Positions 3,602-34,738 of a stretch of 64,000 nucleotides of DNA are shown here, piece after piece; position 1 is the stretch's first letter; every line of letters begins with the position of its first letter. Origin of the DNA: Rhynchopus sp. YZ270_cl-10 (lineage: Eukaryota > Euglenozoa > Diplonemea > Diplonemida > Diplonemidae); the NCBI GenBank assembly GCA_964035575.1, contig OZ037854.1:248001-312000 (forward strand). Reading direction: 5' to 3'. The notes under the pieces are model-generated. The model had not been told where the DNA came from. It worked only from the letters and a program-made list of their open reading frames with translations, and did no database searches. Made by a program: the position numbers and the translations under genes.

Positions 3602-5008
3602 TTACAGCACAGCACTGACCTCTTGCACAATCCCTGTCTTCAGGTTAAAGTCAACAACCTTATCATAGTACACCAAACAATACAGGTACATGTCGTAGCT
3701 GGCCTCTCTCTCGATGTTCACTGTCAAGGTGTTTGCCTGGGTGCTTGAGACGCTGTCTTGGTTCAATGTGTTCTGAAGGTCAAAGCAGTACATGGGGTAG
3801 TACTTCCAGTCGTTGTAGGAGAGCAGCCCTTGAGTGGTGAACCCCATTCCCTCAGGATCCTTGTAGGCACTATGCATCTTCATGTACTCCTTGTAGGCAG
3901 ACTCCCACTTGTTCTTACCCACCTCAATTTCCAGATCCTTGCTTGGCACCTTGATGCCGTTCAGGTCAACAGAGATCTTCCTCACCATACCACTGTCAAA
4001 GCGCGACATATCATGCTCTTGACTTGTTTCCCTGTTTTTCGTTTGGCAGAAGATGATTGCACGTTTGATCCTTGTGTGCGACTTGATTGGTACAGGCCAG
4101 GAGATGTATGTGTCGCCAGCTGCAAACTCCTTTCTCTGAATTTGTGAAGACTCAAAGACAGCTTGAACCATACCGGACTTGTTGATGTAGCTGAGAACTC
4201 CAGCGAGCGGTGAAGGAGCCAAGGTGACACGAGGCATCCAGATCCTCATACCATAACCCACCCAGTTCAAGGCACGGTCACTAACCCCAGAAGAGCGAAG
4301 AACTAGAGCACTGTCGTCATTCACCTCAAAGTTGAACTCCATAGGTATGTTAGTGAACATCTTCTTGTGGTGCTGGAATATGTTGAAGATAAGACTGAGA
4401 GGAACCATGCAGTGTATCTCTCTGTTCCCTGTGGTGCGTCTTGCGCGGTGTGAAGTACTTGAGTCTCTGTTTGCAGTGTCATTGAACCCATCCACAAAGT
4501 CATCATTAACAGCATCCTTCCAAGTGATGTAGTGGCTAAGTAGATTGCTCCCCACAGTGTCATCGTATTGATTGGTGAAGTGAATGAGCGACTCTGCATT
4601 CATCTGCTGTCCTGCAAAGTTGGGAGTGTCCTCGATGTTGACCCCACCGATCTTGAGTGACTTCCTTCTGAAGAAGTTGAGAACATTTGACGCGAAGGCA
4701 GCTTTGTTATCATCATTGTCAGCAAAGGTCCATGCTTCTGTAGCATCCAGGGTCTTGTGTGCTGCAAGGTCTTCATACCCGTTACCACCTGCGTTTACCT
4801 TTACCATCTTGAAGGACATCTCCAAGAACCCTTCAGAGGGGATGATGTGGCTGCTCTGGTCAAGAAGGGTGAAAGTGAAGTCCCGCTCGACTCTTCCAAA
4901 CTGGTTCTGCAGGTTGCTTGACTTCCCAGTGTCTTGGATGGTGATGTAGTCGTACCCACTAACATCGGAGTGTCTCTTGGTTTTCTCACTCAAATTGTAG
5001 AAGCTCAT
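3602..5008 (-). CDS. major capsid protein (double jelly-roll type), putative
   Basis: A 468-residue protein without signal peptide or membrane span. It is rich in beta-prone stretches and ends VQEVSAVL. I assign it as the major capsid protein from its length, its position downstream of the integrase, and its general likeness to Polinton/adintovirus capsid proteins; no single invariant motif proves it. Its ATG (5008-5006) overlaps the integrase stop (5007-5005) as ATGA, so it probably shares the integrase mRNA and may depend on termination-reinitiation. It ends 48 bp from the polymerase stop, opposite the hairpin at 3563-3585. A structure prediction showing two stacked jelly rolls would settle it. 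Confidence 0.78.
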   Translation of the reverse strand: MSFYNLSEKTKRHSDVSGYDYITIQDTGKSSNLQNQFGRVERDFTFTLLDQSSHIIPSEGFLEMSFKMVKVNAGGNGYEDLAAHKTLDATEAWTFADNDDNKAAFASNVLNFFRRKSLKIGGVNIEDTPNFAGQQMNAESLIHFTNQYDDTVGSNLLSHYITWKDAVNDDFVDGFNDTANRDSSTSHRARRTTGNREIHCMVPLSLIFNIFQHHKKMFTNIPMEFNFEVNDDSALVLRSSGVSDRALNWVGYGMRIWMPRVTLAPSPLAGVLSYINKSGMVQAVFESSQIQRKEFAAGDTYISWPVPIKSHTRIKRAIIFCQTKNRETSQEHDMSRFDSGMVRKISVDLNGIKVPSKDLEIEVGKNKWESAYKEYMKMHSAYKDPEGMGFTTQGLLSYNDWKYYPMYCFDLQNTLNQDSVSSTQANTLTVNIEREASYDMYLYCLVYYDKVVDFNLKTGIVQEVSAVL

Positions 5009-6558
5009 TTTGATAGGCGGATTCTATCTTGAGCAAATAGAAATTGTCTCAGCTGTGTTTCATCGTTGAGTATGTCAGGTTTGAGTGTGGGGAATGCTCG
5101 TTGTGCTATGCCCTTCATGCGTTCAAAGGATGGATCTGTCGGTGGGAGGAGCTTAAGTCTTTTGTTGGTCTTCTGTGGTGTTGACACCTCGAGGGAGCTC
5201 GGCTCCTGAGTCTTCTGTTCATCATCCCTCTCCTGAGTCTTCTGTTCATCATCCCTCTCCTGAGTCTTCTGTTCATCATCCCTCTCCTGAGTCTTCTGTT
5301 CATCATCCCTCTCCTGAGTCTTCTGTTCATCATCCCTCTCCTGAGTCTTCTGTTCATCATCCCTCTCCTGAGTCTTCTGTTCATCATCCCTCTCCCTCTT
5401 CTTAGCTCTTGCCTCTGCTCTGGGGTTACTGTTCAGATCCTCTTCTTTCCAATTAGGACCACCAATCTTATTCATGAAGCTGTCCATTTGTGACTCGTGT
5501 TCTGCTTCTTCTACAGCTGTGTTTTGCGGAGCATCACCAAAGTCTTGTTCTGGAGTAGATCTTGGAGCATCACCAAAGTCTTCAGGGTCGTTGACCCCTC
5601 CTGGGTCTTCAGGGACTGGGTCCTCCTCTTTCACTTTCAACAACCTCTCAATCCTCACCTTCCTCCCATTACTCAGTCTTGCATTCACTTGAGCCACACT
5701 CACCACACTAAAGATCTCCCTAGAAAACTTTTGCTTTGTCCCCTTTGCATGTATATTCTTACTCAACAACACCCTCACTCTATCACCAGGTTTTACACTA
5801 GACTGCGACACACTTGCTTTATCCAGGTTCATGATGAGTATGCTGACATCGTCGTTGGTGACAAGGTTCGGAGGCTTCTTGATGGTGCTGTGGTATCTGT
5901 TGTTGTAGGCGTACGTTAGCTCCTGAAGGCTGTCTACCCAGTTTGCTGTCTTGTTGATCTCGAAGTGCTTTTGCAGGATTTCTCGCAGTGTTCTAGAGAT
6001 GCGGTCGACAATCCCAAGGGCGTTATGGTCTCCAACCTCGTTCATCTGGTGTTCTATGCTGTGGGCGCTGAAGACTTCCTTCACCATCAGGTTGTTGAAT
6101 TCTAACCCGTTGTCACTCATGATCGTTTGAGGAAGGTCCTTCTTATCTGTCTGTATCTGATGTAGTATTGCTGTCAAGGCTTCTTTGACACTACCCATTG
6201 TCTTGTTCTTCAGGGGTCTGGTGTACAACTTTCTACTAAAGACGTCTATCAAGTTCAGTATCCACGAGTAGCCTTTGTTCCTTGTCTTGAGCTTCTGGAA
6301 GTCGAGGAGGTCCATCTGCATGACGTGGTTGATCTCGAAGGCTGTGATGTGACCCGACAGCTTGCTTGGTTTCTTCCTGAACAGCTGATATGCCCTCTGC
6401 TTGTGTATGTAGTCCTCTATCTCGTCAAGGGTATACTTCTCACCACCATCTTCGGCTGCGCCTGCAAACTGAAAGTCAAACAACCTCGCAGGATCAGTGA
6501 TGTAACCTGAGTCTCGCCATAATTTGTTCAAGTTTACTCTTACTTCGTTTGAGCTCAT
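5005..6558 (-). CDS. Polinton integrase (rve/DDE superfamily) with repeat-rich tail
   Basis: A 517-residue integrase that would join element ends to host DNA. The catalytic core has D83 (MQMDLLDF), D149 (IMSDNGLEF) and, exactly 36 positions later, D185 in GIVDRISRTLRE. The spacing is the classical D,D(35)E spacing, but the third acidic residue is Asp, not Glu. The N-terminal part (1-70) lacks an obvious HHCC zinc finger. After the core, a basic region (about 250-320) with alternating charged and hydrophobic residues may bind DNA. The tail (about 330-480) is acidic and disordered and holds seven 9-residue RDDEQKTQE units. The gene starts 21 bp from the divergent gene at 6580 and its stop overlaps the capsid start. 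Confidence 0.92.
   Translation of the reverse strand: MSSNEVRVNLNKLWRDSGYITDPARLFDFQFAGAAEDGGEKYTLDEIEDYIHKQRAYQLFRKKPSKLSGHITAFEINHVMQMDLLDFQKLKTRNKGYSWILNLIDVFSRKLYTRPLKNKTMGSVKEALTAILHQIQTDKKDLPQTIMSDNGLEFNNLMVKEVFSAHSIEHQMNEVGDHNALGIVDRISRTLREILQKHFEINKTANWVDSLQELTYAYNNRYHSTIKKPPNLVTNDDVSILIMNLDKASVSQSSVKPGDRVRVLLSKNIHAKGTKQKFSREIFSVVSVAQVNARLSNGRKVRIERLLKVKEEDPVPEDPGGVNDPEDFGDAPRSTPEQDFGDAPQNTAVEEAEHESQMDSFMNKIGGPNWKEEDLNSNPRAEARAKKRERDDEQKTQERDDEQKTQERDDEQKTQERDDEQKTQERDDEQKTQERDDEQKTQERDDEQKTQEPSSLEVSTPQKTNKRLKLLPPTDPSFERMKGIAQRAFPTLKPDILNDETQLRQFLFAQDRIRLSK
5204..5392. repeat. 27-bp minisatellite, 7 copies, inside integrase gene
   Basis: Seven exact or nearly exact 27-bp units (189 bp in total) keep the integrase frame and encode RDDEQKTQE on the minus strand. 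The near-perfect identity indicates recent expansion. Frames on the other strand that read through it are by-products. Confidence 0.95.
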
Positions 6559-15020: not shown

Positions 15021-16202
15021 ATGTCCTCTGAGGAACAGAAAAGCTATGAACAGTCCAGGACGCACAGCATTAGCCCGATGGGTTTGCTCTCTGGGTTGGC
15101 CGGGCAGCTGGGGAAGGAGATTGTGGAGTGGTCCTATGTCGCAGGCGACGTGTTGTACTTGCAGTTCCTGGAATGGGGACTGGTGGTGCTGGTGAGTGTG
15201 GCAACGGGGGTGGCGGTGACGGCCATGATCTGGTACGGACGGATATGGTACCTGGGCGGCACGATGACCGTCAAGGGTTACGTCGCTGGAGAGGTACTGG
15301 GACGGGGCGGATTCGGCGAAGTATCGCGTGGGCACTCCATCATGCCGGGCTCACCCATGATTGCAATGAAGGTGCCGTACGGGAACACTGCAAAGTGGTC
15401 AAACGAGGCGCACACCTTGAAGCGGCTGAACCCCCCGCCGTTTCTCAGCGAGGGGTTTGCGAAGCTGGTGTTTGTGTCTCAGGGCATTATTGGGATGAAC
15501 CTTCTGGGGCCGTCTCTTGAGTCTGTGAAGAAGGAGCTGCCGCAGAAGAAGTTTTCGCTGAAGACGACACTTCTGGTTGCGGAGCAGGCGTTGAATCGTC
15601 TTTTTACGATGCACCATAAGCGCACACTGCACAGAGATGTAAAGCCCGAGAACTTCCTCCTTGGTTTGCGTGACGACAGGAACATTGTGCACATTGTCGA
15701 CTTTGGGCTCTCTGAGCGTTTCTACGATACCACACTGCGGCGACACAAAGCATACCGCGAGGGCTGTACCGTCTACGGCACACCGTACTTCTCATCGCTT
15801 AATGCCGACTGCGGCTGCGAGCAGGGACGTCGCGATGACATTGAGAGTCTTGGGTATACGCTGGTGTACCTGGCGAAGGGCACGCTGCCGTGGATTGGGT
15901 TGAAGTCTTTGGGTCCAAGAGAGTCTTGGCACAAACGTGTCTGCGATATGAAAGCCAACATGCCGCTTGCAGAGCTCTGTGAGGGCCTCCCGTCTGAGTT
16001 CTCCACCATTCTCACCCACGCACGCAGCCTCAAATTCACGGACAAACCAAACTACGCCTTTCTGCAGGAGATCCTTGCACGCAGGTTTGCAAAGCTTGGC
16101 TACGCAGCAGACAACGTGTACGACTGGTCTGAGGAGCATGCTTGGAAGTGCTGGGAGGTAGGTGGCACCCCAGCCGGCGTCGTTGACGTGGACCGAGAGT
16201 GA
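15021..16202 (+). CDS. membrane-anchored casein kinase 1-like protein kinase
   Basis: A 393-residue single-exon protein kinase. An N-terminal hydrophobic segment (about 53-76, VVLVSVATGVAVTAMIWY) should anchor it in a membrane. The kinase domain runs from the Gly-rich loop GRGGFGEV (near 94) through the ATP-binding lysine in AMKV, the catalytic loop HRDVKPENFLLG (near 204) and DFGLSERF (near 227). The segment GTPYFSSLNADCG followed by EQGRRDDIESLGYTLVYLAKGTLPW is the hallmark of casein kinase 1, which lacks the usual APE motif. All catalytic residues are present, so it should be active. An N-terminal membrane anchor is unusual for CK1, which is normally soluble or lipid-anchored. An inverted-repeat element begins 88 bp after the stop. 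Confidence 0.9.
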   Translation: MSSEEQKSYEQSRTHSISPMGLLSGLAGQLGKEIVEWSYVAGDVLYLQFLEWGLVVLVSVATGVAVTAMIWYGRIWYLGGTMTVKGYVAGEVLGRGGFGEVSRGHSIMPGSPMIAMKVPYGNTAKWSNEAHTLKRLNPPPFLSEGFAKLVFVSQGIIGMNLLGPSLESVKKELPQKKFSLKTTLLVAEQALNRLFTMHHKRTLHRDVKPENFLLGLRDDRNIVHIVDFGLSERFYDTTLRRHKAYREGCTVYGTPYFSSLNADCGCEQGRRDDIESLGYTLVYLAKGTLPWIGLKSLGPRESWHKRVCDMKANMPLAELCEGLPSEFSTILTHARSLKFTDKPNYAFLQEILARRFAKLGYAADNVYDWSEEHAWKCWEVGGTPAGVVDVDRE

Positions 16203-16289
16203 GCAGCGGAAGAGGGGAGGGAACATGCCTCCCCCGTCTACCTGGATGGTTTACCATCTATTAACCTGGGGGGGGGGGGGGGGGGGGTA

Positions 16290-17485
16290 GGGGGTCCGAC
16301 TGTGAGTAAAATTACCGTACAAAAAACTCATTATTAAACTTCTGGTCATTTCCAAGGTAACTGCGGGTGAAACACACCCTCAGAGTGGGTCACAGGGGGC
16401 CTGTGGGCCGAAAAACGACCCAGAAGCCACCCCAGAATACAAAAAAATGGAAAAAAATAGTGAAAAAACGGCTTTTTGGCGGTTTTGGCCAAGTTGGGCA
16501 AAATAGCGGTTTTTCAAGAAAAAACCAAAAAAACGGTTATTTTTTGACATCACAAAACCTCCTTTGGCACAAATATACCCCAAAAGTGGCCTGTGAGTCC
16601 ATTCCAACCTGTTTTGGACATATTTGACACTTTTGGAAGTGTTTTTTTGGTGTTTTTACGTCAAAAAACATACCCTGGCAATACCCTGACCGCGCTCCGG
16701 CAGCATTCCGGCATGCTGTTTGACCCATATAGGGGTCAAGAAATGGCCAAAAACCCCCGAAAAAGGACCCTGGGAACCCAGATAGTTCCAAATTTCCACC
16801 ACATCCCCACCCAAACACCGCAAAAACACGACAGAATATCGTCTTAAAAAACACACTTTTTTCAAAAAGGCTATTATGGAGCCTGTCTGACGACCTTTTT
16901 GAAAAAAGTGTGTTTTTTAAGACGATATTCTGTCGTGTTTTTGCAGTGTTTGGGTGGGGATGTGGTGGAAATTTGGAACTCTCTGGGTTCCCAGGGTCCT
17001 TTTTCGGGGGTTTTTGGCCATTTCTTGACCCCTATATGGGTCAAACAGCATGCCGGAATGCTGCCGGAGCGCGGTCAGGGTATTGCCAGGGTATGTTTTT
17101 TGACGTAAAAACACCAAAAAAACACTTCCAAAAGTGTCAAATATGTCCAAAACAGGTTGGAATGGACTCACAGGCCACTTTTGGGGTATATTTGTGCCAA
17201 AGGAGGTTTTGTGATGTCAAAAAATAACCGTTTTTTTGGTTTTTTCTTGAAAAACCGCTATTTTGCCCAACATGGCCAAAACCGCCAAAAAGCCGTTTTT
17301 TCACTATTTTTTTCCATTTTTTTGTATTCTGGGGTGGCTTCTGGGTCGTTTTTCGGCCCACAGGCCCCCTGTGACCCACTCTGAGGGTGTGTTTCACCCG
17401 CAGTTACCTTGGAAATGACCAGAAGTTTAATAATGAGTTTTTTGTACGAAATTTTATACACAAGTCTATTAGGAGTCGGACCCCC
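16290..17485. mobile_element. foldback element X1
   Basis: Begins GGGGGTCCGACT and ends AGTCGGACCCCC. Two arms of about 580-590 bp are almost perfect inverted copies around a 23-base loop (16871-16893). The outermost 40 bases of the two arms differ. Open frames in it occur in mirrored pairs and are not genes. A second copy, interrupted and truncated, lies at 30632-32224. Confidence 0.93.
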
Positions 17486-17487
17486 TA

Positions 17488-18641
17488 GGCATAGGTGCCC
17501 GGCGAGTTAAAACAACTCGGCAACTCGCCCAAATTCGGCCAACAACTCGCCCATTTTTTTTGGGCGAGTTGTTTTTTTTTGGGATTTTTTATGGCTACAA
17601 AAACACAGGTACACAGGTACACAGGTACACAGGTACACAGGTACACAGGTACACAGGTACACAGGTACACAGGTACACAGGTACACAGGTACACAGGTAC
17701 ACAGGTACACAGGTACACAGGTACACAGGTACACAGGTACACAGGTACACAGGTACACAGGTACACAGGTACACAGGTACACAGGTACACAGGTACACAG
17801 GTACACAGGTACACAGGTACACAGGTACACAGGTACACAGGTACACAGGTACACAGGTACACAGGTACACAGGTACACAGGTACACAGGTACACAGGTAC
17901 ACAGGTACACAGGTACACAGGTACACAGGTACACAGGTACACAGGTACACAGGTACACAGGTACACAGGTACACAGGTACACCACATCACGTTTTATCTT
18001 GTGCATCCCACGCTTCACAGCTGGTCTGTGAATGTGCGCTTTGTGTGGTTTTGTGTATCCCAAAGGAAGTCGTCGCCCAAAGCATTTTGACTAAACGTGT
18101 GAACGTTGTGAACCTGGAATCGATAGCAGACAGGAAAAGAGGATGGGCAGGCAGCGCCTGCCCGACCTGTGTGAAGTGAATCAGTGATTGCCTGACAGAT
18201 GTCTGGGGAACCGTGTGTTCTGTGTGGGTATCCATGTACGGAGTATATCCCATTCCCCCCAGCAATTACCAAAAACCGTGAGTGTGCACGGTGGCCCATG
18301 GACCACCACGACCTAGTTACCACCTATGACTAGTCATATGACAAGGTGCATGTAATGAGTGGCGTTTGGCCTTAGCCCTGGTTGTTTTTCTTGAGATTAT
18401 GTGTTGTACCAACGTTACATGTGTGTAACCTTACAACGTCACCTCCCATCCCTGTATGTTTTTGCCTGTAAAAATGGGCGAGTTGTGGCCGAGTTGTGGC
18501 CGAGTTGTGCCGAGTATAGGGCGAGTTGTGCCGAGTATAGGGCGAGTTGTGGCCGAGTTGTCCGAGTTTTGGGCGAGTTGTTTGGTAAAATCGTGGAGTT
18601 CGGACAACTCGCCCAAAAACGACTCGGCCGGCACCTATGCC
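17488..18641. mobile_element. inverted-repeat element Y
   Basis: Ends GGCATAGGTGCC and GGCACCTATGCC. Next to each end lie clusters of GGCGAGTTG-like subrepeats in opposite orientation, likely protein-binding sites. The interior holds an octamer satellite and about 450 bp of unique sequence. The inverted relative Y' is at 19472-20361, and element U (29786-30629) has related ends and subterminal repeats. Confidence 0.9.
17603..17982. repeat. octamer satellite ACAGGTAC, about 47 copies
   Basis: Perfect 8-bp tandem repeat in element Y. All frames through it encode period-8 peptides and are not genes. The equivalent tract in Y' has only about 12 copies. Confidence 0.98.
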
Positions 18642-18665
18642 TAGGGGGGGGGGGGGGGGGGGGTA

Positions 18666-19469
18666 GGGGAGGGTCACTGCACGTTAAATCTCTCGATAAA
18701 TGCGATTTTTCCGATTTTGATCCTCAGAACCGCAGAAGTCCCCGAAAACTATACCAAACCACCTAGGGGACCCAAAAAACGCACCAGCGACCCAGTTTTG
18801 ACACAGAAACACTCAGATGATGCCTGAAATGCAATTTTAAAAGAGTGCCTACAGAACTTGTACCTGCCCACCCCCGTAGATAGAGCAACTCACGCATCCA
18901 TCACGCCTCAGTGTGGGCCAGGGGCCAGAAAAGCCCCCAAAGCCACATATTTTCACCCCAGAACCTATCCCGAGGGGTACCCAGGCTGTTTCGGGGTGTT
19001 TAGAGGGACTTGGTGGAACTTAGAACCATGTTTCAAAAAGGGTACAAGTACTGTGCCAAGGGTTTGCCCTCTCAAGGGACCAAGTACTTGTACCCTTTTT
19101 GAAACATGGTTCTAAGTTCCACCAAGTCCCTCTAAACACCCCGAAACAGCCTGGGTACCCCTCGGGATAGGTTCTGGGGTGAAAATATGTGGCTTTGGGG
19201 GCTTTTCTGGCCCCTGGCCCACACTGAGGCGTGATGGATGCGTGAGTTGCTCTATCTACGGGGGTGGGCAGGTACAAGTTCTGTAGGCACTCTTTTAAAA
19301 TTGCATTTCAGGCATCATCTGAGTGTTTCTGTGTCAAAACTGGGTCGCTGGTGCGTTTTTTGGGTCCCCTAGGTGGTTTGGTATAGTTTTCGGGGACTTC
19401 TGCGGTTCTGAGGATCAAAATCGGAAAAATCGCATTTATCGAGAGATTTAACGTGCAGTGACCCTCCCC
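18666..19469. mobile_element. foldback element X2
   Basis: Begins GGGGAGGGTCACTGCACG, ends with its reverse complement, and folds around a 30-base loop (19053-19082) between GGTACAAGTACT and AGTACTTGTACC. Internal sequence (TGGGGTGAAAATATGTGGCT and the flanking region) is shared with V and with the fragment at 34208. Confidence 0.92.
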
Positions 19470-19471
19470 TA

Positions 19472-20361
19472 GGCATAGGTGCCCGCCGAGTCGTTTTTGG
19501 GCGAGTTGTCGGAACTTTACGATTTCACCTAACAACTCGCCCAAAACTCGCGCAACTCGGCCACAACTCGCCCTATACTCGGCACAACTCGCCCTATACT
19601 CGGCACAACTCGACCACAACTCGGCCACAACTCGCCCATTTTTACAGGCAAAAACATACAGGGATGGGAGGGGACATTGTAAGGTTACACGCATGTAACG
19701 TTGGTTGGAACACATGATATCAAGAAAAACAACCAGGGCTAAGGCCAAACGCCACTCATTACATGCACCTTGTCATATGACTAGTCATAGGTGGTAACTA
19801 GGTCGTGGTGGTCCATGGGCCACCGTGTACACTCACGATTTTTGGTAATTGCTGGGGGGAATGGGATACTCCGTACATGGATACCCACACAGAACACACG
19901 GTTCCCCAGACATCTGTCAGGCAATCACTGATTCACTTCCCACAGGTCGGGCAGGCGCTGCCTGCCCATCTCTTTTCCTGTCTGCTATCGATTCCAGGTT
20001 CACAACGTTCACACGTTTAGTCAAAATACTTTGGGCAACGACTTCCTTTGGGATACACAAAACCACACAAAGCGCACATTCACAGACCAGCTGTGAAGCG
20101 GCAGAGAGTCGTTCAAGCTGGAATGCACAAGATAAAACGTGATGAGGTGTACCTGTGTACCTGTGTACCTGTGTACCTGTGTACCTGTGTACCTGTGTAC
20201 CTGTGTACCTGTGTACCTGTGTACCTGTGTACCTGTGTACCTGTGTTTTTGTAGCCATAAAAAATCCCAAAAAAAAACAACTCGCCCAAAAAAAATGGGC
20301 GAGTTGTTGGCCGAATTTGGGCGAGTTGCCGAGTTGTTTTAACTCGCCGGGCACCTATGCC
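19472..20361. mobile_element. element Y', inverted copy of Y
   Basis: Same ends as Y, in opposite orientation, so Y, X2 and Y' together form a palindrome of about 2.9 kb. Substitutions, small indels and a much shorter octamer tract show that the two copies have diverged. Confidence 0.9.
20147..20246. repeat. octamer satellite in Y', about 12 copies
   Basis: GTACCTGT tandem, the reverse complement of the tract at 17603, contracted about fourfold relative to it. Confidence 0.97.
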
Positions 20362-20375
20362 TAGGGGGGGGGGTA

Positions 20376-22112
20376 GGCTCCACACATGGGTTTTCGACTT
20401 TTTAAAAAAAAAAAATGTCAAAAAAAAAATTTTTTTTTTTTTGTTGGGCCCAGATCGGTCCTCTGAGTATTTTGAAAAAAAAAATTTTTTTTTTTGAAAA
20501 AAAAATTTTACGTCAAAATCAAAAAACCAGGTTTTGGCCGTCTGAGAATATCGCCTGTGGAAGGATTTTTGACTCAATATTTCAAACCAAGACCGGTTCT
20601 AGGGGCCCAAAAGGGTGCAGCTCGTCGAAATCAGGCCCACAGGACCCCCAGGAGTACGATTTCCACAGGAGAGTGACCCTAAGAGGCCTCTGGCGGCCCT
20701 AATTTGGCATTTTTTAGCCCAAAACCGCCACTACCCCCCTCTCTGGGGGGAGGGCAATTTTCCACTCATTTTCCCCATTTCTAGTGCTTCTAAGTCCTCT
20801 AAAGGGTAAAAAACCGGTTCCATTGAGTCCGCAGACCATTTTTTGGGGGGGTATGTACCAAAATTTGCACCATACCCTACTTTATGTGATGGTCATGGGA
20901 AAAGTCCTTGCCTGGACAGGGGGGTGTCTACCCCCTGTCCAACCCCTGTCCAGGCCAGGACTTTTCCCATGACCATCACATAAAGTAGGGTATGGTGCAA
21001 ATTTTGGTACATACTCCCCCAAAAAATGGTCTGCGGACCCAATGGAACCGGTTTTTTACCCTTTGGAGGACTTAGAAGCACTAGAAATAGGGAAAATGAG
21101 TCAAAAATTGCCCTCCCCCCCAGAGAGGGGGGCACAGGGGGGTAGGGGCAATTTTTGACTCATTTTCCCCATTTCTGGTGCTTCTAAGTCCTCTAAAGGG
21201 TAAAAAACCGGTTCCGTTGGGTCCGCAGGCCATTTTTTTGGGGGGTATGTACGCAAATTTGCACCATACCCTACTTTATGTGATGGTCACGGGAAAAATC
21301 TTGGCCTGGACAGGGGGTAGACACCCCCTGTCCACCCCCTGTCCAGGCCAGGATTTTTCCCGTGACCATCACATAAAGTAGGGTATGGTGCAAATTTTGG
21401 TACATACCCCCCCCAAAAAATGGTCTGCGGACCCAACGGAACCGGTTTTTTACCCTTTAGAGGACTTAGAAGCACCAGAAATGGGGAAAATGAGTCAAAA
21501 ATTGCCCTCCCCCCCAGAGAGGGGGGCACAGGGGGGTAGGGTCCGTTTTGGGCTAAAAAATGCCAAATTAGGGCCGCCAGAGGCCTCTGAAGGGTAAAAA
21601 ACCGGTTCCGTTGGGTCCGCAGACCATTTTTTGGGGGGGTATGTACCAAAATTTGCACCATACCCTACTTTATGTGATGGCCACGGGAAAAGTCCTGGCC
21701 TGGACAGGGGTTGGACAGGGGTTGGACAGGGGGTCATTTTGACCTCAAAACACCAAAAAACGGCCAAAAAAAGTACCTAAAGTGTCCAAAACAGGTCGGA
21801 ATGGACTCACGGGACCTCCCTGGGGTAGTTTTGTGCCCAAGCAGCTGTCATGATGTCGAAATTTTACAATTTTTTTGAAAATTTGGTCAAAAATGGTCAT
21901 TTTCCCCAAAATGGCCCAAATGGCCGATGTGTGCTTTAATTTCCATTTTTTTTGGGTTTCTGGGGGACCTTTTCATGAATCTGTGGCTCAGACTGTCCCC
22001 CAGACCGGTTTCTGAGGTATTCCAGGGCGGGAGGTGCACTGGAAGAGCGTGATAAGCTGAAAATTCCTGAAAAAATGGCTATATAGGCGGTATTTTCCAC
22101 AAGTGTGGAGCC
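20376..22112. mobile_element. element Z, multiple inverted modules
   Basis: Ends GGCTCCACAC and GTGTGGAGCC. Between about 20700 and 21720 a module of about 180-220 bp containing AAAACCGGTTCC and CATCACATAAAGTAGGGTA occurs at least five times in alternating orientation (near 20700, 20945, 21150, 21345 and 21590). It is punctuated by CCCCTGTCC repeats at the turning points. No gene seen. Confidence 0.85.
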
Positions 22113-22132
22113 TAGGGGGGGGGGGGGGGGTA

Positions 22133-23738
22133 GGGGCTATCAAATGCTGTATAATTTTGTGTACAAATGACATTTTTTCGAATTTTTTTTAAAAACGTGT
22201 TTCTAAGTGTTTTCGACCGGAAAATGTGGTACATACCCCCCAAAAAACTACCTGTGCCCCGTTTTTTCACCATTTTGTGCATCTGCGAAACTTTTTTTCG
22301 CATTTTTCGAAAAAATCTCAAAAACTGGGCACACCTAGGTACCTGAGTGTGCCCATATTCTAGGATAGATGATATGTCAACAAAGGCCCGCTGCTCTCCC
22401 TCAAACCCCCCAGTTCGCCACAATATACCACACCGGGGTTGAATTCGATCAAAATATAGCTGCCACATTCAGTACTTAGACATTCCGAAGCAACTAATTT
22501 TATCCACCAAAAAGGCGCTTTTCTCCTACTAATGGGGGGCCCATAGGGGTGCCCAATGAGGGGGCCCAAGTTTGTGCGCCAAATCGGCAACAAATATGGA
22601 TGGAAACTGAGCCAAGCTGCAAACCTGACACAGCAGTATGATTTCCTCAGCGGGGAAGTTAAGAAGGGCACCTTATACGTTGTTGGCGGCAATGCTATGA
22701 AGGTATTTTGCCCCAGCCTCTAAACCCGCACTTTCAGCTGCGTCAGTGGTGTATCTGTGGTGGTACCTCTCCTCCGTGAAATTATTGAAGTGCGATAAAA
22801 ACCAAGAAGGTGAGTTGTCGGCTTCTGAAGCACGTCCCCACTTCTCCACGTTAAAGAGTTGGCTAACTACATTGTCAAATTTATAAGCAACTCCAAACAC
22901 CCACCGTGGTTCCCTGAATACTACGTGTCCAACATCAACTGCACACTGAAGCCAGCCCAACAGACACAGTGTGCCAAGCTTATCAGGGAAGGGACAGCAG
23001 CCATGATTCCCACCCTCACACGAGTTGTGGCTAAAGACGAACAGCAGTTTGTGGAGAACAAACAGGCGTACGAGATGGCGCCACATTCGAACGATTTTAC
23101 GGAATCTTCGCATGCAACGTTTGCGCAACTCTCTGACCGTCTGCCAGGAGCTAACCCTCTGCATACGTCCCAAATTGCGCAGTACAAGCAAAACTCCGGT
23201 ACCGCGCGCGCTTTAGGAATCCCCCTTGTGCGCTATGAAGTGGTCAAGAAGTTCCAAGGACAACAGCGCGCTCCAGCCTGCAGATCAGGTTTGGGGAGAG
23301 GTGCACGCGGTGAGCTCGAAAGCAAGAATACGGACGAAGCTGAAGGACGTGTTAATGGATGACTTGAAGGAAGAAGCCGAATCAATAGGCTTAAGTCCCG
23401 ATGGGCGCTGAGGGATGACCTTGTCGAGGTCAGAATCGACAATAAAATGTGAACCCCCTTCCGTCCCTCACAGGAGGACTCCAAAGCGCAAATTGTCATA
23501 ATCAAGCCCCGTATCTTCAAAAAAAGCATGTACTGAAGGGCGCACATAGGTACCTAGGTGTGCCCAGAAAATCGAAAAAGTGAAAAAAAGGTCTCTAATC
23601 ACCCCAAAACCGGGTTTTTTGGGCTCATGCGTCATTTTTATGGGGCTGTGGGGTGGATTTCATCATCAGAAGACATAGAAACACGTTTTTTATTTGAACT
23701 TGAAAAAAAGCCCAATGTTACCCCCATTTGATAGCCCC
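22133..23738. mobile_element. element W with gene-like cargo
   Basis: Begins GGGGCTATCAAATG and ends CATTTGATAGCCCC. Only the ends are inverted repeats; the middle (22550-23450) has higher GC and coding character, unlike the other elements of the array. Confidence 0.85.
22556..23362 (+). pseudogene. two-exon gene fragment carried in element W
   Basis: A reading of 216 residues is possible with exons 22556-22702 and 22859-23362. The intron (156 nt) starts GTATTT and ends AG after a pyrimidine-rich stretch, and phases fit. The first exon encodes IGNKYGWKLSQAANL and GTLYVVGGNAMK. The second contains NDFTESSHATFAQLSDRLPG, which faintly recalls C-terminal regions of eukaryotic cut-and-paste transposases. 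It may be a decayed transposase or a captured host gene piece. No complete domain is visible. Confidence 0.45.
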
Positions 23739-23752
23739 TAGGGGGGGGGGTA

Positions 23753-24961
23753 GGGGGTAGCAAACCCCACGTAAAAAGTGAGGCAAAAGTGGTTTTTTCG
23801 GATTTTTGAAAAAAAAAGCTTTCTATGTCATTCTGACCATACTCTCCGACCCATACCCCCCAAAAAACACCCCCTGACCCGGTTTCCACCCGAAATAGCA
23901 CTTTCTGTGCCCAAAAATGGACAAATTGTAAAAAAAAAAAAATTTGGCCAGGACTTGGTACCTTTGGTGGGTACCAGGTCCTGGCACCCTTTTTAAAACA
24001 TGGTTCTAAGTTCCACCAAGTCCCTCTAAACACCCCGAAACCGCCTGGGTACCCCTCGGGATGGGTTCTGGGGTGAAAATATGTGGCTTTGGGGCCTTTT
24101 CTGGCCCCAGAATGAGTAAAAGCGGTCCAAACAGCAGGTGGTGCAGATGATGGCCACAGTGGAGAGAACCACACGCTGCTTTTTGGACCGCTTTTACACA
24201 TACTGGGGCTAGAAAAACCCCCAAAGCCACATATTTTCACCCCAGAACCTATCCCGAGGGGTACCCAGGCGGTTTCGGGGTGTTAATCACCTTAGTTCGC
24301 ATGCTTTTTTTACTTTTTTTTTTATTTTTCTTGAAAATCTTGGTTTTCCTGTAGGTGTGGTATTTCTATTGGCACTATATTGTCACTCAGGTTGGGAGGG
24401 GGACAGTGATGGAACACAACGCATTTTTGACCCAAAAAACAGGGTACTGCACCTATTATGAGGTCGGGGAATCAATTCCGAGGTGATTTTTGGACATTGG
24501 AGACGTTCTGGCGGTCTCATTGGGAGTGTTGATGCTCGTGACAAGGCAAAAAGCAAGTGTGTATTTAATAAACCATGGAGTGTTGGGTATGTCAAATCAC
24601 TCTGAGACGTCTCTGGGGACCAGAAAAGGCCCCAAAGCCACATATTTTCACCCCAGAACCCATCCCGAGGGGTACCCAGGCGGTTTCGGGGTGTTTAGAG
24701 GGACTTGGTGGAACTTAGAACCATGTTTTAAAAAGGGTGCCAGGACCTGGTACCCACCAAAGGTACCAAGTCCTGGCCAAAAATTTTTTTTTTTTTGAAT
24801 TTGTCCATTTTTGGGCACAGAAAGTGCTATTTCGGGTGGAAACCGGGTCAGGGGGTGTTTTTTGGGGGGTATGGGTCGGAGAGTATGGTCAGAATGACAT
24901 AGAAAGCTTTTTTTTTCAAAAGTCAAAAAAATCGTGTTTGCCTCGGGCTTTTGCTACCCCC
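23753..24961. mobile_element. foldback element V with captured centre
   Basis: Begins GGGGGTAGCAAA and ends TTTTGCTACCCCC. The outer arms (about 23753-24105 and 24610-24961) are inverted copies. The centre holds an extra partial inverted copy (24200-24285) and about 300 bp of unrelated sequence. Arms share modules with X2, including the segment around GGTGGAACTTAGAACCATG. Confidence 0.88.
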
Positions 24962-24996
24962 TAAGGGGGGGGGGGGGGGGGGGGGAAAGGGGGGTA

Positions 24997-29759: not shown

Positions 29760-29785
29760 CCCCCCCCCCCCCCCCCCCCCCCCTA

Positions 29786-30629
29786 GGCATACTGTGCAGG
29801 CGAGCCGTTTTTAGGCGAGTTTTTCGTTTTCCTGATTTTCAGGAAAAACTCGCCAAAAACTCGCCCTACTCGCCCATTACTCGCCTATTACTCGCCAAAA
29901 CTCGCCAAAAACTCGCCAAAACTCGCCTAAACTCGCCAAAAACTCGCCTAAACTCGCCTAAACTCGCCCACATTTGGGTGCAAATCCTGGTGCACATACG
30001 CACCTTGGGGGTGAAAATGTGCACCAGGATGTGAAAATGGAGGGCGGGGTGACTGATGACAACATGCCACTCGAAAACACACAAAAAAATTGAAATTGTG
30101 TCACTTGTACGTCTAACGGCAACCATGTCACGGCAGTGGCTGACAGGCATGTATGTAAACATTTGCTCCAGGGGAAGATCCAAGCGTGCCATAGATCCCG
30201 GGGGACAAGACGTGCTACAATCCGGAGGATGACGAAGACATGAGCCGGGGCTACACTCGCTATACAACAATGTCCTCGTCATGCCGGTAAATGGCAACCC
30301 TGCAGGCCACCCCTTGGCGGTATTCCCCCACGACTACATCGCACCCATCTGTGCAAGCTTCATGGATCCGCAGAAGGTACAGCTGGACTGGTGGTACTGG
30401 TTGTGGAAGCCTACAAAGCAAACTGCAGAGGTCTTGTTCAAGTGGAACGAAAAAAATTTTCTCTTCAAAACTCAAATTTCCCTCATATTTTCGTGTGTAC
30501 ACTTTTCCCAAGGTAAAATCCCTACCAAAAAAAAAAAACTCGCCAAAACTCGCCCCCCAAAAATGGGCGAGTTTTAGGCGAGTTTTTGGCGAGTAGGCGA
30601 GTTTTTTTTACTCGCCTGCACAGTATGCC
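29786..30629. mobile_element. inverted-repeat element U
   Basis: Ends GGCATACTGTGCAGGCGAG and its reverse complement, flanked by TA, preceded by a 24-base C run. Subterminal GGCGAGTTT-like repeats are inverted at the two ends, as in Y. The interior (30240-30440) has an open stretch encoding PHDYIAPICASFMDP and QLDWWYWLWKPTKQTAEV, which looks like a captured gene piece. Confidence 0.88.
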
Positions 30630-30631
30630 TA

Positions 30632-32224
30632 GGGGGTCCGACTGTGAGTAAAATGACCGTACAAAAAACTCATTAGGGCACGGTAATTTTTTTTCTTGGT
30701 AAGCGTCAGACCACTTCTCAAAAAAAAATACGCACGCACGCAAAAAAAAATTATGCAGTAAAAAAAATTATGAGTGGTGAAAAAAATTATAGAGGAAAAT
30801 TACAGTGGGGGAAATACAGGTACCAAAAATATTTTCCCACCAATTTTTGCCCACAAAAAATCGGGGGAAATTTTTTTTGATTTCGGCTCTCGGGAGTCTG
30901 TGTGTGCTGTGATGGGGTCAATTTGCGCTGAAAAATGTACATTTTTTACCTAAAATACATAGTTGAGTTATTGAGGGTCCCCCTTTATAATTTTTTTTTC
31001 TACATAATTTTTTTCCCTGGAATCTCAAAAAAAAAGTACGCACGCAGACGCTTACCAAAAATAAAAATTACCGTGCCCTTATTAAACTTCTGGTCATCTC
31101 CAAGGCAACTGCGGGTGAAAAACACCCTCAGAGTGGGTCACAGGGGGCCTGTGGGTCGAAAAACGACCCAGAAGCCACCCCAGAATACAAAAAAATGGAA
31201 AAAAATAGTGAAAAAACGGCTTTTTTCACGTTTTGGCCATGTTGGGCAAAACAGCGATTTTTCAAGAAAAAAAACCAAAAAACGGCATATTTTTTGACAT
31301 CACAAAGCCTCCTTTGGCACAAATATACCCCAAAAGTGGCCTGTGAGTCCATTCCAACCTGTTTTGGGCATATTTGACACTTTTGGAAGTGTTTTTTTGG
31401 TGTTTTCACGTTGAAAAACACCCCCACAAAACCCCCGGACCGCCCCCGGGACAGCACTGCCACTGTTGCTCGACCACATTCTCGGCCATATTTTTGCTTA
31501 AAACCCCCGAAAAAGGGCCCCCGGAACCCCAATCTTTCCAAATTTCCACCTCATCCCCACCCAAACACCGCAAAAACACGACAGAAAATCGTCTTAAAAA
31601 ACACACTTTTTTCAAAAAGGTCATCAGGCAGGTTCCATAATAGCCTTTTTGAAAAAAGTGTGTTTTTTAAGACGATTTTCTGTCGTGTTTTTGCGGTGTT
31701 TGGGTGGGGATGAGGTGGAAATTTGGAAAGATTGGGGTTCCGGGGGCCCTTTTTCGGGGGTTTTAAGCAAAAATATGGCCGAGAATGTGGTCGGAGCAAT
31801 GGTGGCAGTGCTGTCCAAGGACCGTCCAAGGATTTTTTGGGGGCGTTTTTCAGCGTGAAAACACCAAAAAAACACTTCCAAAAGTGTCAAATATGCCCAA
31901 AACAGGTTGGAATGGACTCACAGGCCACTTTTGGGGTATATTTGTGCCAAAGGAGGCTTTGTGATGTCAAAAAATATGCCGTTTTTTGGTTTTTTTCTTG
32001 AAAAATCGCTGTTTTGCCCAACATGGCCAAAACGTGAAAAAAGCCGTTTTTTCACTATTTTTTTCCATTTTTTTTTGTATTCTGGGGTGGCTTCTGGGTC
32101 GTTTTTCGGCCCACAGGCCCTCTGTGACCCACTCTGAGGGTGTTTTTCACCCGCAGTTGCCTTGGAGATGACCAGAAGTTTAATAATGAGTTTTTTGTAC
32201 GAAATTTTATACACAAGTCTATTA
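30632..32224. mobile_element. second copy of foldback X1, interrupted and truncated
   Basis: Starts GGGGGTCCGACT directly after the TA that ends U. The left arm is split by a 403-bp inverted-repeat element (30676-31078). The last 14 bases of the right arm are missing where element T begins. The 23-base loop (about 31621-31643) is the reverse complement of the X1 loop although the outer ends have the same orientation. Confidence 0.9.
30676..31078. mobile_element. MITE inserted in X1 copy, 3-bp TTA target duplication
   Basis: Begins GGGCACGGTAATTTTT and ends with its near reverse complement, with further pairing at GGTAAGCGTC. It is flanked by TTA on both sides (30673-30675, 31079-31081). Comparison with intact X1 shows the empty site CTCATTATTAAAC. 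A 3-bp TTA/TAA duplication is typical of PIF/Harbinger elements. Confidence 0.9.
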
Positions 32225-34207
32225 CACGACGCGGTCCAGGACCAATTTCACTTGTCATGGTGACAAGTGAAATGACAAGTGAAATGTATGACAAGTGGTC
32301 ACTTGTCATGACAAGTGAACCACTTGTCATGACAAGTGAATCACTTGTCATGACAAGTGATTTACCTGAGGAATGCCTGTGAGCTCATGATTTCATTTAT
32401 TCCTACATGAAATGAAGTAAAAAAATGTAAAATGATGTACTTTTTATCTCTTTCTTTTTTAGCCTGATGTGGGTAGTGGCGGCTATCTGATAGTTTTCTT
32501 TTATTGATTAGGGAGTGGGTTGTGCAGGCAACGTAAGGAAATGGGGTGGGGACTGGGGAACGGTAAAGAAAAGTATGGTTAAAGTGACGTAAGGACTTTT
32601 GCGAAGGGCTCTCACTCACGGACTGACGCTTCATTTTTTAAAAAAATTTGAAATGTAAAAGACAACAAAAGGTGATGTTTTATTTTTCCTTCCTTCAAAA
32701 CTTCACACACAACGCTTTTTTGGTTTTTGGGAGACACACAAGGTGCCAGGTTCTATGGTAAGCACGGAACCACCCTGCACCTGTTTGTCATGTTGTTTCC
32801 CGTGCAATACATGGAGAAACGTTTCGCACTCGAAACAAAGCTTTTTTAATAAAAAATGAACGAAGCACAAAAACAAGCGTGTGTGGAAGAAAAAAGAAAA
32901 GGGAAAATATTTTTTCTGATTCACAGTGGTGTTTATGTTTTGGGTACGGGGCGGAGAATAAAATCTGTTCGATAAAAGAAACGCAAGCTTTTTGTTTTAT
33001 CTTGTTCATTTTTAAAAGCAAAAATAACTATTTATTCCACAGTTAAATAAAGTATACGAAGCACTTTTAGCGTGATTCTTTTTAATGATAATTTCACGCC
33101 GTGTTTTTTTCACAAATAAAAACCACGCTAATTGAACTTTATTTCACGCGTTTTCACTTTTTTTCACTGCAATTCCTTATGCCAGCCACCGCCTTCCTCA
33201 CAATGAAGTAAGGGGGTGGTGTGTCCTCCGCCTTCATAGGTAATGAAGGAGTCGATTTCTTGTTTCGTAAGTGCGGAGTGCCTTGGACTGTCGTGTCGGT
33301 AGCCGGTCTGGTTTTGTTTCAAGAGACACACGAGCCTGCGCAAACTGGTCTTGCAGTTGCACCCCATACTTCCTCGCCAATATGCTGCTCAGCTTACTGA
33401 ACGCTGTCCATTACGACGACGATTTGTACGTGAGATCGTCACGGAGATGCACTATGCACAAAACAAAGTCGGCTTCCGTGGGCTTACCGTTGGGCTTGCC
33501 AATGAATTCCTTAAAAAGCGGTCCCATTCACGGATGTACGGTGTCGACGATGCCAGTCCTTCAGCAAAACCACTGTAGCGCTCGTCCATCTCTTGTCGGA
33601 GGACCGTTTGCGTCTTAGATCCTTCGGCATGTTGCGTGTGTCAAAAAAAAATGGGAAAAGTGCAAAAAAAAATTCGAAATTTTCAATTTTTAGGCGGGTG
33701 GTGGTGCAGGATATACCAAAATTTAGCGTGAAGTTATCGCCAAAAAAAAACCCCTGTTTTGGCGTGAAAAAAACAAAAATAAAATCACGCTCCTAAGGAA
33801 TTGCAGTGAAAAAAAGTGAAAACGCGTGAAATAAAGTTCAATTAGCGTGGTTTTTATTTGTGAAAAAAACACGGCGTGAAATTATCATTAAAAAGAATCA
33901 CGCTAAAAGTGCCAAATCCTTCGTATACTTTATTTAACTGTGGAATAACGTGTCCTTACGTCACTTTAAACAATACTTTTCCTTTTTTTTTTTTCTTTTC
34001 TTTTCCTTTTTTCCCCCACTCCCCACCCCATTGCCTTACTTTGCTTGCGCAACCCACTCCCTAATCAAAAAATAACAATAAAAAGAATCCAGGGTTAACA
34101 GGGACCCTAAGGATTCACTTGTCATGACAAGTGATTTACATGTCATTTCACTTGTCACTTTTATGACATGTCATTTCACTTGTCAGGTGCCTCTGGACCG
34201 CGTCGTG
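32225..34207. mobile_element. palindromic element T with CACTTGT clusters
   Basis: Ends CACGACGCGGTCCAG and CTGGACCGCGTCGTG. Just inside both ends are clusters of the palindrome CACTTGTCATGACAAGTG (32247-32365 and 34113-34186), probable transposase or host-factor sites. A second nested palindrome runs from about 33010 to 33950 (AGCGTGATTCTTTTTAATG and partner). The centre (33160-33600) has coding-like sequence, including a stretch encoding FVREIVTEMHYAQNKVGF, but no full gene. Confidence 0.85.
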
Positions 34208-34713
34208 TGGGGTGAAAATATGTGGCTTTGGGGGCTTTTCTGGCCCCTGGCTCACACTGAGGCGTGATGAATGTGTGAGTTGCTCTATCTACGGGGGGGT
34301 GGGCAGGTACAAGTTGGTGGTCACTTTTGAAAAAATGCAAAAAAGTCGCTCAGAAGTGGTCAAAAGTGCTCAAAACCGGGCGGAATTCGATTTTTGGGGT
34401 CACAATGGACATATTTTCTGGTTTCATCCAGCAGTACTCGCCCAAAGCAGAAGAGGAAACTGAATTTTAAATAAATGTGGGAACAGAGGGGGGGTGAAAA
34501 GGTACGAAGTCATGGACACCCATTTTTTTTTCCTGAATTTTTAAAATCAGGGCCACCGAAGTGCCAAAAAAGGGTAAACTCGGGGCCTGAGACGGTTTTT
34601 GGGGGTGTGTGGGTGGGTTGGTATGGTCAGAAACACTATGAAAGCCGTGGTTGGGGTTTTTTTAAAAAAATGACTTTTTGCCACCCTTTTTAGTACCCTT
34701 TTGATAGACCCTA
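34208..34713. mobile_element. fragment related to X2/V/W elements
   Basis: Starts with the module TGGGGTGAAAATATGTGGCT shared with X2 and V and ends TTTTGATAGACCC-TA followed by a run of 13 C, resembling the end of W. Its left end is missing where T adjoins. Confidence 0.7.
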
Positions 34714-34738
34714 CCCCCCCCCCCCCTCTTTTTACATG

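Follow-up and report, generated by a model that had tools for sequence, protein, structure and literature searches.

The 64,000-nucleotide stretch of Rhynchopus sp. YZ270_cl-10 analysed here (contig OZ037854.1, positions 248,001 to 312,000, referred to below as the window) contains, at 16268-24985 on the + strand, an array of DNA transposons joined by runs of G. The reading which we favour, with a probability of about 85%, is that poly-G tracts already present in the genome act as landing pads: insertion of a first tier of elements into the tracts, insertion of a second tier into the seams of the first, and drift in run length would together give the array. The array was first pointed out in a preliminary description made from the letters of the window. 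As an observation it is real and partly confirmed, and the pattern recurs genome-wide; the mechanism proposed for it, insertion of TA-targeting Tc1/mariner-type elements into CCTAGG junctions followed by growth of the G runs, is largely replaced, and that interpretation is supported only in part.

Between 16288 and 24963 there are seven terminal inverted repeat (TIR) elements, E1 to E7, end to end and with no host DNA between them, as originally described. Read on the + strand, the order is host AACCT-G20-TA-[E1]-TA-[E2]-TA-G20-TA-[E3]-TA-[E4]-TA-G10-TA-[E5]-TA-G16-TA-[E6]-TA-G10-TA-[E7]-TA-A-G21-AAAG6-TA-host. E1/E2 and E3/E4 have a single common TA, and the other borders have the form TA-G(n)-TA, with n = 20, 10, 16 and 10. 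All the G runs lie on the + strand, again as described. At the left border, host AACCT abuts G20 directly, with no TA; at the right, E7 is followed by A-G21, then AAAG6-TA and then host. E1, E3, E5, E6 and E7 start with TAGG and end with CCTA, and are referred to as the first tier; their terminal repeats differ and are 14-18 bp long, except in E3, where the repeat is the whole length. Full palindromes are limited to E1, at 97.5% over 1,163 bp, and E3, which is 97.8% palindromic from one end to the other. E5 and E7 have long internal arms, and E2, E4 (22-bp TIRs) and E6 (16-bp TIR) are non-palindromic, so that the claim of seven palindromic elements holds for two. Nor are there seven families: by their ends the elements fall into six, E2 and E4 being copies of one family in opposite orientation. 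E3 and E7 have stretches of 80-139 bp in common, and E1 and E5 have 184 bp in common at 73%. A single mirrored duplication was considered for E2-E3-E4 and rejected; there are two opposite second-tier copies around the palindromic E3, each at a seam.

The nature of the target is given by an unrelated repeat, AAAATTTTTTTGCTCGTT-G(n)-TTTTGGACCCC. The genome searched comprised 152 Mb in 126 contigs, and the left part of this repeat has 19 exact copies in it. Ten copies are empty, with a pure G run between the two parts (n = 11, 17, 18, 18, 19, 19, 20, 21, 21 and 38), and in none of the ten does the run contain TA. The other nine (eight from L079-L097, and L065, a copy of the family X1 described below) are filled and have the form G(n)-TA-element, with at least five families as occupants. 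The G run is therefore the insertion target and was present before the element; it is not mainly a later by-product. As TA is absent from the uninterrupted runs of the empty copies, the TA next to a filled run is the first-tier element's own terminal dinucleotide (TAGG...CCTA) and not a target duplication. The borders of the array are as first described, but the TA beside a G run has another origin, and the left host edge lacks one. Where empty TA sites had been predicted, pure G runs are found. The same evidence led us to reject the idea that TA-targeting elements had filled an ancestral minisatellite of the form (G(n)TA)m. In the five filled copies with both runs read (the far border of the other four lies outside the DNA read), the total number of G's is 28, 33, 34, 38 and 39, a mean of 34.4 compared with 20.2 in the empty copies. 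This excess of about 14 is near to an 11-bp duplication plus drift. The earlier idea of G-run growth at the junction is right in so far as run lengths drift, but the run itself pre-exists. One filled copy (L102) has extra bases beside the right TA, and another (L099) has in addition a second-tier element and a lengthened T run.

The association extends to the whole genome. TAGG follows 793 of the 5,391 G/C runs of 12 or more, and CCTA precedes 706, compared with 24 and 3, respectively, for the reversed-pattern controls, which are so much lower that the association is beyond chance. Run-TAGG sites number at least 98 on contigs C1-C8 (runs of 12 or more only). Of the 98 listed, 40 have no listed CCTA-run in the 6 kb downstream; among the others, the closest one shares the strand of the site in 57 cases and is on the opposite strand in one. 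Fifteen of the 98 runs stand between two elements. The end of the E2/E4 family has 217 exact occurrences genome-wide. A further first-tier family, X1 (GGGGGTACGACTCC; about 1,188 bp, 95.5% palindromic), was used to extend the sample; its end occurs 204 times, and its copies face either way with respect to the strand of the G run.

Since a pure G run hides any duplication, the target duplication was sought at the ragged edges of runs. Fifty-two X1 copies were read, 36 of them with both ends within the DNA read, and with the five first-tier elements of the window these gave 41 elements. Thirty have G-rich flanks on both sides. Eleven were left out: seven adjoin a second-tier element, L070 and L183 are each missing a flank, and in L111 and L171 the run on one side is of the opposite letter. 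Among the 30, exact flank repeats of 3-20 bp which include a non-G base occur five times at 11 bp, once at 13, twice at 14 and at no other length. The five are T+G10 (twice), C+G10, G9TT and the A+G10 of E7, whose left A is the final base of E6's terminal TA. A non-G base follows the right TA in seven insertions, and six of these have an identical base just ahead of the left run (P about 0.007, taking a chance match as one in three); for E7 and L149, which are among the six, that base is, or looks to be, the last of a neighbour's TA. Five insertions have non-G bases separating the left run from TA, and in each of them these bases recur after the right run. Overall, a direct repeat reaches out of the run in 11 of the 12 informative ragged-edge insertions. 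The most satisfactory explanation of these repeats is a target duplication of 11 bp, after which the run lengths drifted. Eleven bp lies within the 8-11 bp of Mutator-like elements (MULEs), and this length, together with the long inverted repeats in some elements, leads us to infer that the first tier is Mutator-like.

The second tier behaves differently from the first. Thirty-seven copies of the E2/E4 family were read (the two of the window array and 35 fetched ones). All have CC-TA on one side and TA-GG on the other, and 35 of the 37 have a G run of at least eight as one neighbour and an element end as the other. Among the X1 copies read at both ends, seven which have an upstream G run have a GGCATA element downstream at CC-TA-GG, and in the X1 copy L111 the GGCATA element is on the side away from its G15-C16 run. 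The longest exact repeat around the second-tier elements is CCTAGG, which fits a duplication of 6 bp if the elements end in CATA, or of 2 bp (TA) if they end in GGCATA. Ten variant second-tier ends, in which a base other than G precedes CATAGG, were found. Insertion into the CCTAGG seam of an earlier insertion, as originally suggested, is therefore correct for E2 and E4, but not for the first tier, whose target is the G run. The family also contains an 8-bp CAGGTACA minisatellite, with 47 units in E2 (17603-17982) and 12 in E4 (20147-20246).

A coding relative of the second tier was found at L148. It is 3.46 kb long with GGCATACCTAGAAAGCG ends, stands between a first-tier CCCCC-TA and TA-G17, and has two open reading frames (ORFs), of 506 and 173 aa. 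The longer one weakly matches the hAT-dimerisation profile PF05699 (E 0.0074; 16.5 bits, below the curated 21.4), and its DTRW and C-H-N positions, which resemble what we take to be hAT motifs, are conserved in a three-sequence alignment. From its sequence the element is judged to be hAT-like; a Tc1/mariner-type autonomous relative had been expected. It lacks the 8-bp duplication of hATs, the longest exact repeat being CCTAGG, but shorter duplications occur in that superfamily. There are 19 full-length, stop-free genomic matches to the 506-aa ORF at about 100% identity, which suggests recent activity. Six intact copies lie on C1-C8, and all but one of them start no more than 5 kb from a listed G run bordered by an element. 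A more distant match (39% identity) lies at C5:1045012, within an 853-aa open frame which has the X1 copy L073 on one side and the next CCTA-run of the list on the other. Next to L073 the end reads GGCATAGTGTGC, and the frame probably belongs to the element with that end. At C5:1778902-1788243 two blocks follow each other with one G run between them. Each pairs a first-tier element with a full-length copy of the 506-aa ORF, as judged from the second block, which was read (L148), and from the match positions for the first. Comparison of two of the transposases with a large protein collection gave two unnamed matches each and nothing informative.

The array was built by successive insertion of real DNA transposons, as had been proposed, and the steps may be pictured as follows. 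First-tier elements, in which no coding capacity was found, would enter a G run by cut-and-paste with duplication of 11 bp, using a transposase which probably acts in trans. Because the duplicated bases are mostly G, the product on one strand would look like G(n)-TA-element-TA-G(m), and each leftover G run would be open to another element. The downstream junction of each such insertion would be CC-TA-GG. The second tier, with GGCATA ends, would insert at this seam and restore it; neighbours at second-tier seams would share a single TA because CCTAGG is re-created. Repetition of both steps, plus changes in run length, presumably by slippage, would generate the whole array.

A number of observations weigh against this scheme. 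The one-strand rule is broken at L111, where G15 is followed by C16, and at L171 (L171/L172 flanks), with G19 on one side and C10 on the other. L155 is the mismatch among the seven insertions with a non-G base after the right TA, and needs drift or mutation, as do the exact repeats of 13 bp (one) and 14 bp (two), which are beyond the 8-11 bp range of MULEs unless they have drifted. Flanking runs shorter than 11 imply the loss of at least one G; they include the window's own G10 runs, a run of 8 at L061 and runs of 9 at L069 and L072. Two second-tier copies depart from the usual placement, L021 with an element on either side and L049 with G8 and G10 as neighbours, and one intact 506-aa copy (C7:767308) is more than 5 kb from any listed site. 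Finally, no transposase was found inside a first-tier element. Five longer intervals from a run-TAGG to a CCTA-run were candidates for coding first-tier elements and were rejected on reading their contents: L147 is a first-tier block without coding sequence, with a palindrome of X1 type at its end, L148 is a first-tier element plus the coding second-tier element, L189 and L191 are pairs of first- and second-tier elements, and L190 has a first-tier start and a GGCATA-type far end (its seam position was not located). The MULE profile PF10551 gave 12 matches in the genome, and none of the four on C1-C8 is, by eye, within 6 kb of a listed run site.

The first tier might instead be hAT elements whose 8-bp duplication is hidden in the run. 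Their TAGGG ends are compatible with what we take to be the hAT end consensus, YARNG, and hATs are abundant, with at least 139 matches to PF05699 in the genome. An autonomous hAT of 671 aa (L126, L127-L136; Hermes match, E 6.6e-4) lands in G- or C-rich tracts, with 8-bp duplications visible in five of six copies (C8, G8, GGGGTAAA, GGTGGGGG and CTACCCCC); the left end of the sixth copy was not found. However, informative exact 8-bp repeats were seen in none of the 30 first-tier elements, compared with five at exactly 11 bp, and we regard this alternative as improbable.

A second hAT family, H, has DUF659, a BED-like N-terminus (by eye), a hAT-dimerisation match in the following reading frame and CAGTG ends. 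All seven copies read have 8-bp duplications centred on TA (CCCTAGGG in five, CCTTAGGG and CTCTAGAC in one each), and three of the seven (L122, L137/138 and L141/142) are at, or apparently at, first-tier seams. Both this and the 671-aa family have the 8-bp duplication, CAGTG-type ends and domain of hATs. Copies of H also occur away from G runs in a tandem repeat (GTACCCTAGGGTCCGTAATTACG) with CCCTAGGG units (L121, L143-L146). In a 741-aa hAT family (L118-L120) the 3' end CAACCTTG is followed in three copies by CCCCCCTA, TGCAGCTT and a long C run, and two of the three copies adjoin C runs. Two further hAT families, of 954 aa (target duplication GGCTCGTC) and 891 aa (ACTACACT), were found at ordinary sites, one copy each. 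Targeting of G tracts is therefore not a property of all transposons here; it is common to one hAT and the 11-bp first tier.

A somewhat poorer case can be made for circles of first-tier elements, with poly-G between their ends, which integrate into chromosomal poly-G by homologous recombination. Such integration would explain why the runs are on one strand, why the elements carry the TA and why filled sites have a larger G total, and a similar route is offered as speculation for plant SaTars in the accessible text of the source (PMC5907723). Recombination, however, would not duplicate the non-G bases at the borders of the run, which are duplicated in 11 of 12 informative insertions, five at exactly 11 bp. 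X1 is also present in both orientations with respect to the G strand, although a palindrome can flip. We therefore consider circle integration to be distinctly unlikely.

The mechanism of the preliminary description, in which TA-targeting Tc1/mariner-like elements insert at CCTAGG and G runs grow later at the junctions, is very improbable for the first tier. There is a TA at nearly every junction, second-tier elements do use CCTAGG, and there is more total G in filled than in empty sites. Against this, all ten empty target copies hold a G run with no TA, the readable flank repeats are 11 bp and contain G's, and the seam users with coding capacity (the second-tier relative and family H) are hAT-like or hAT. 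Homopolymers and palindromes are hard to assemble, but an assembly artefact is barely credible when the same junction pattern occurs at hundreds of genomic places, hosts and neighbours differ where read, and the palindrome arms differ, a point also made originally.

The window has a second, smaller array on the - strand at 29760-34726, G13-TA-first-tier block-TA-second-tier element-TA-G24, with the same order as the main array (Table 1). Its first-tier block is probably composite. Within E6 of the main array, a non-palindromic stretch of about 0.9 kb (22580-23500) is flanked by CACACCTAGGTACC-type inverted repeats; a 167-aa ORF in this stretch has no Pfam match. Elsewhere in the window, a 1,168-aa ORF at 47-3553 matches Endonuclease_7, an integrase-core (rve) ORF adjoins a second one (3602-6558), and a protein-kinase ORF of 393 aa (15021-16202) stops about 65 bp ahead of the left G run. 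The window proteins also include a match to the FWWh family, which we presume to be flagellar.

Table 1. Positions of the elements and G runs of both arrays, numbered from the first letter of the window.
Feature	Position	Strand	Remarks
G20, left array edge	16268..16287	+	preceded directly by host AACCT
E1, first tier	16288..17487	+	TAGGGGGTCCGACT...AGTCGGACCCCCTA, near-full palindrome
E2, second tier	17486..18643	+	GGCATAGGTGCC family, at E1/G-run seam
G20	18644..18663	+	between E2 and E3
E3, first tier	18664..19471	+	TAGGGGAGGGTCACTG..., palindrome end to end (97.8%)
E4, second tier	19470..20363	-	E2 family inverted, at E3/G-run seam
G10	20364..20373	+	between E4 and E5
E5, first tier	20374..22114	+	TAGGCTCCACAC...GTGTGGAGCCTA
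G16	22115..22130	+	between E5 and E6
E6, first tier	22131..23740	+	TAGGGGCTATCAAATG..., 16-bp TIR, middle non-palindromic
G10	23741..23750	+	between E6 and E7
E7, first tier	23751..24963	+	TAGGGGGTAGCAAA..., exact 11-bp repeat A+G10 on both flanks
A-G21, right array edge	24964..24985	+	then AAAG6-TA and host
G24, downstream edge of second array	29760..29783	-	C24 on + strand
Second-tier element	29784..30631	-	GGCATACTGTGC...GCACAGTATGCC, between G run and first-tier end
First-tier block	30630..34713	-	ends GGGGGTCCGACTG and GGGTCTATCAAA
G13, upstream edge of second array	34714..34726	-	C13 on + strand

It had been stated that no described family tiles in this way, but arrays of MULEs joined through microsatellites are known from guayule and rice (PMC5907723). 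As far as the accessible text of that source goes, SaTar, rSaTar and AgS-MULE elements of guayule, rice, sorghum and citrus are non-autonomous MULEs which are flanked by microsatellites and stand end to end, with none interrupting another; MULE duplications range from 8 to 11 bp, with 10 bp in guayule; and the route to simple repeats is left open, a site-specific transposase and circle recombination both being discussed (PMC5907723). These arrays are the closest precedent found, and the first tier works like SaTar in the features accessible there: both are short, non-autonomous TIR elements with simple-repeat flanks, unrelated elements stand end to end, and the 11-bp duplication is in the MULE range. 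The same simple repeat is present on both sides of 30 of the 41 first-tier elements, and unrelated elements adjoin with none interrupted, as judged in the main window array. The differences, on the same partial text, are that SaTar mainly targets (TA)n (PMC5907723) and the target here is a mononucleotide G tract, that the duplication is readable here at the tract edges, and that there is a second tier of hAT-like elements on the seam. An autonomous MULE partner was not found among the 12 PF10551 matches, whose ends were not read.

Comparison with other target-specific systems is likewise limited to the accessible text of each source. TAFTA of maize and Micron (rSaTar2) of rice are also microsatellite-targeted, and for TAFTA empty sites are known and the flanking repeat expands after insertion; their target is (TA)n, however, and no second tier is described there (PMC5907723). 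Among hAT/Buster elements, TcBuster has an 8-bp duplication, nnnTAnnn (PMC3499496). Family H resembles the hAT superfamily in its DUF659, hAT-dimerisation match, CAGTG ends and TA-centred 8-bp duplications; in contrast, the repeat of the GGCATA second tier is 6 bp (CCTAGG) or 2 bp (TA) and not 8, and the GGCATA copies read land almost only on seams of other transposons. Dada elements are also DNA transposons with strict target specificity, but they target snRNA and tRNA genes with 6-7-bp duplications, rather than G runs and transposon seams (PMC3706591). In a literature search largely confined to papers available without subscription, neither a mononucleotide G target nor a dependent second tier was recognised among the matches listed, nor was any follow-up work on SaTar. 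Relative to SaTar, the mononucleotide target, the dependent second tier and the readable duplication are new here.

Microsatellites tend to hide the duplication of elements which target them, and here the ragged edges of the G runs expose 11 bp. The edge-exposed duplication, together with multi-copy empty sites, therefore favours direct cut-and-paste insertion. The second tier provides a clear case of transposons targeting the junction made by other transposons, and hATs at ordinary sites in the same genome allow comparison. More tentatively, and at a little under even odds, poly-G may support a layered guild of transposons, in which at least two superfamilies (a hAT with its 8-bp duplication and the 11-bp first tier, taken as Mutator-like) converge on the tract. 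What draws them might be some property of poly-G in the host, for instance a G-quadruplex, freedom from nucleosomes or a tendency to break. In the same picture, a hAT-like clade has specialised on the first-tier seam, so that its landing sites would depend on other transposons.

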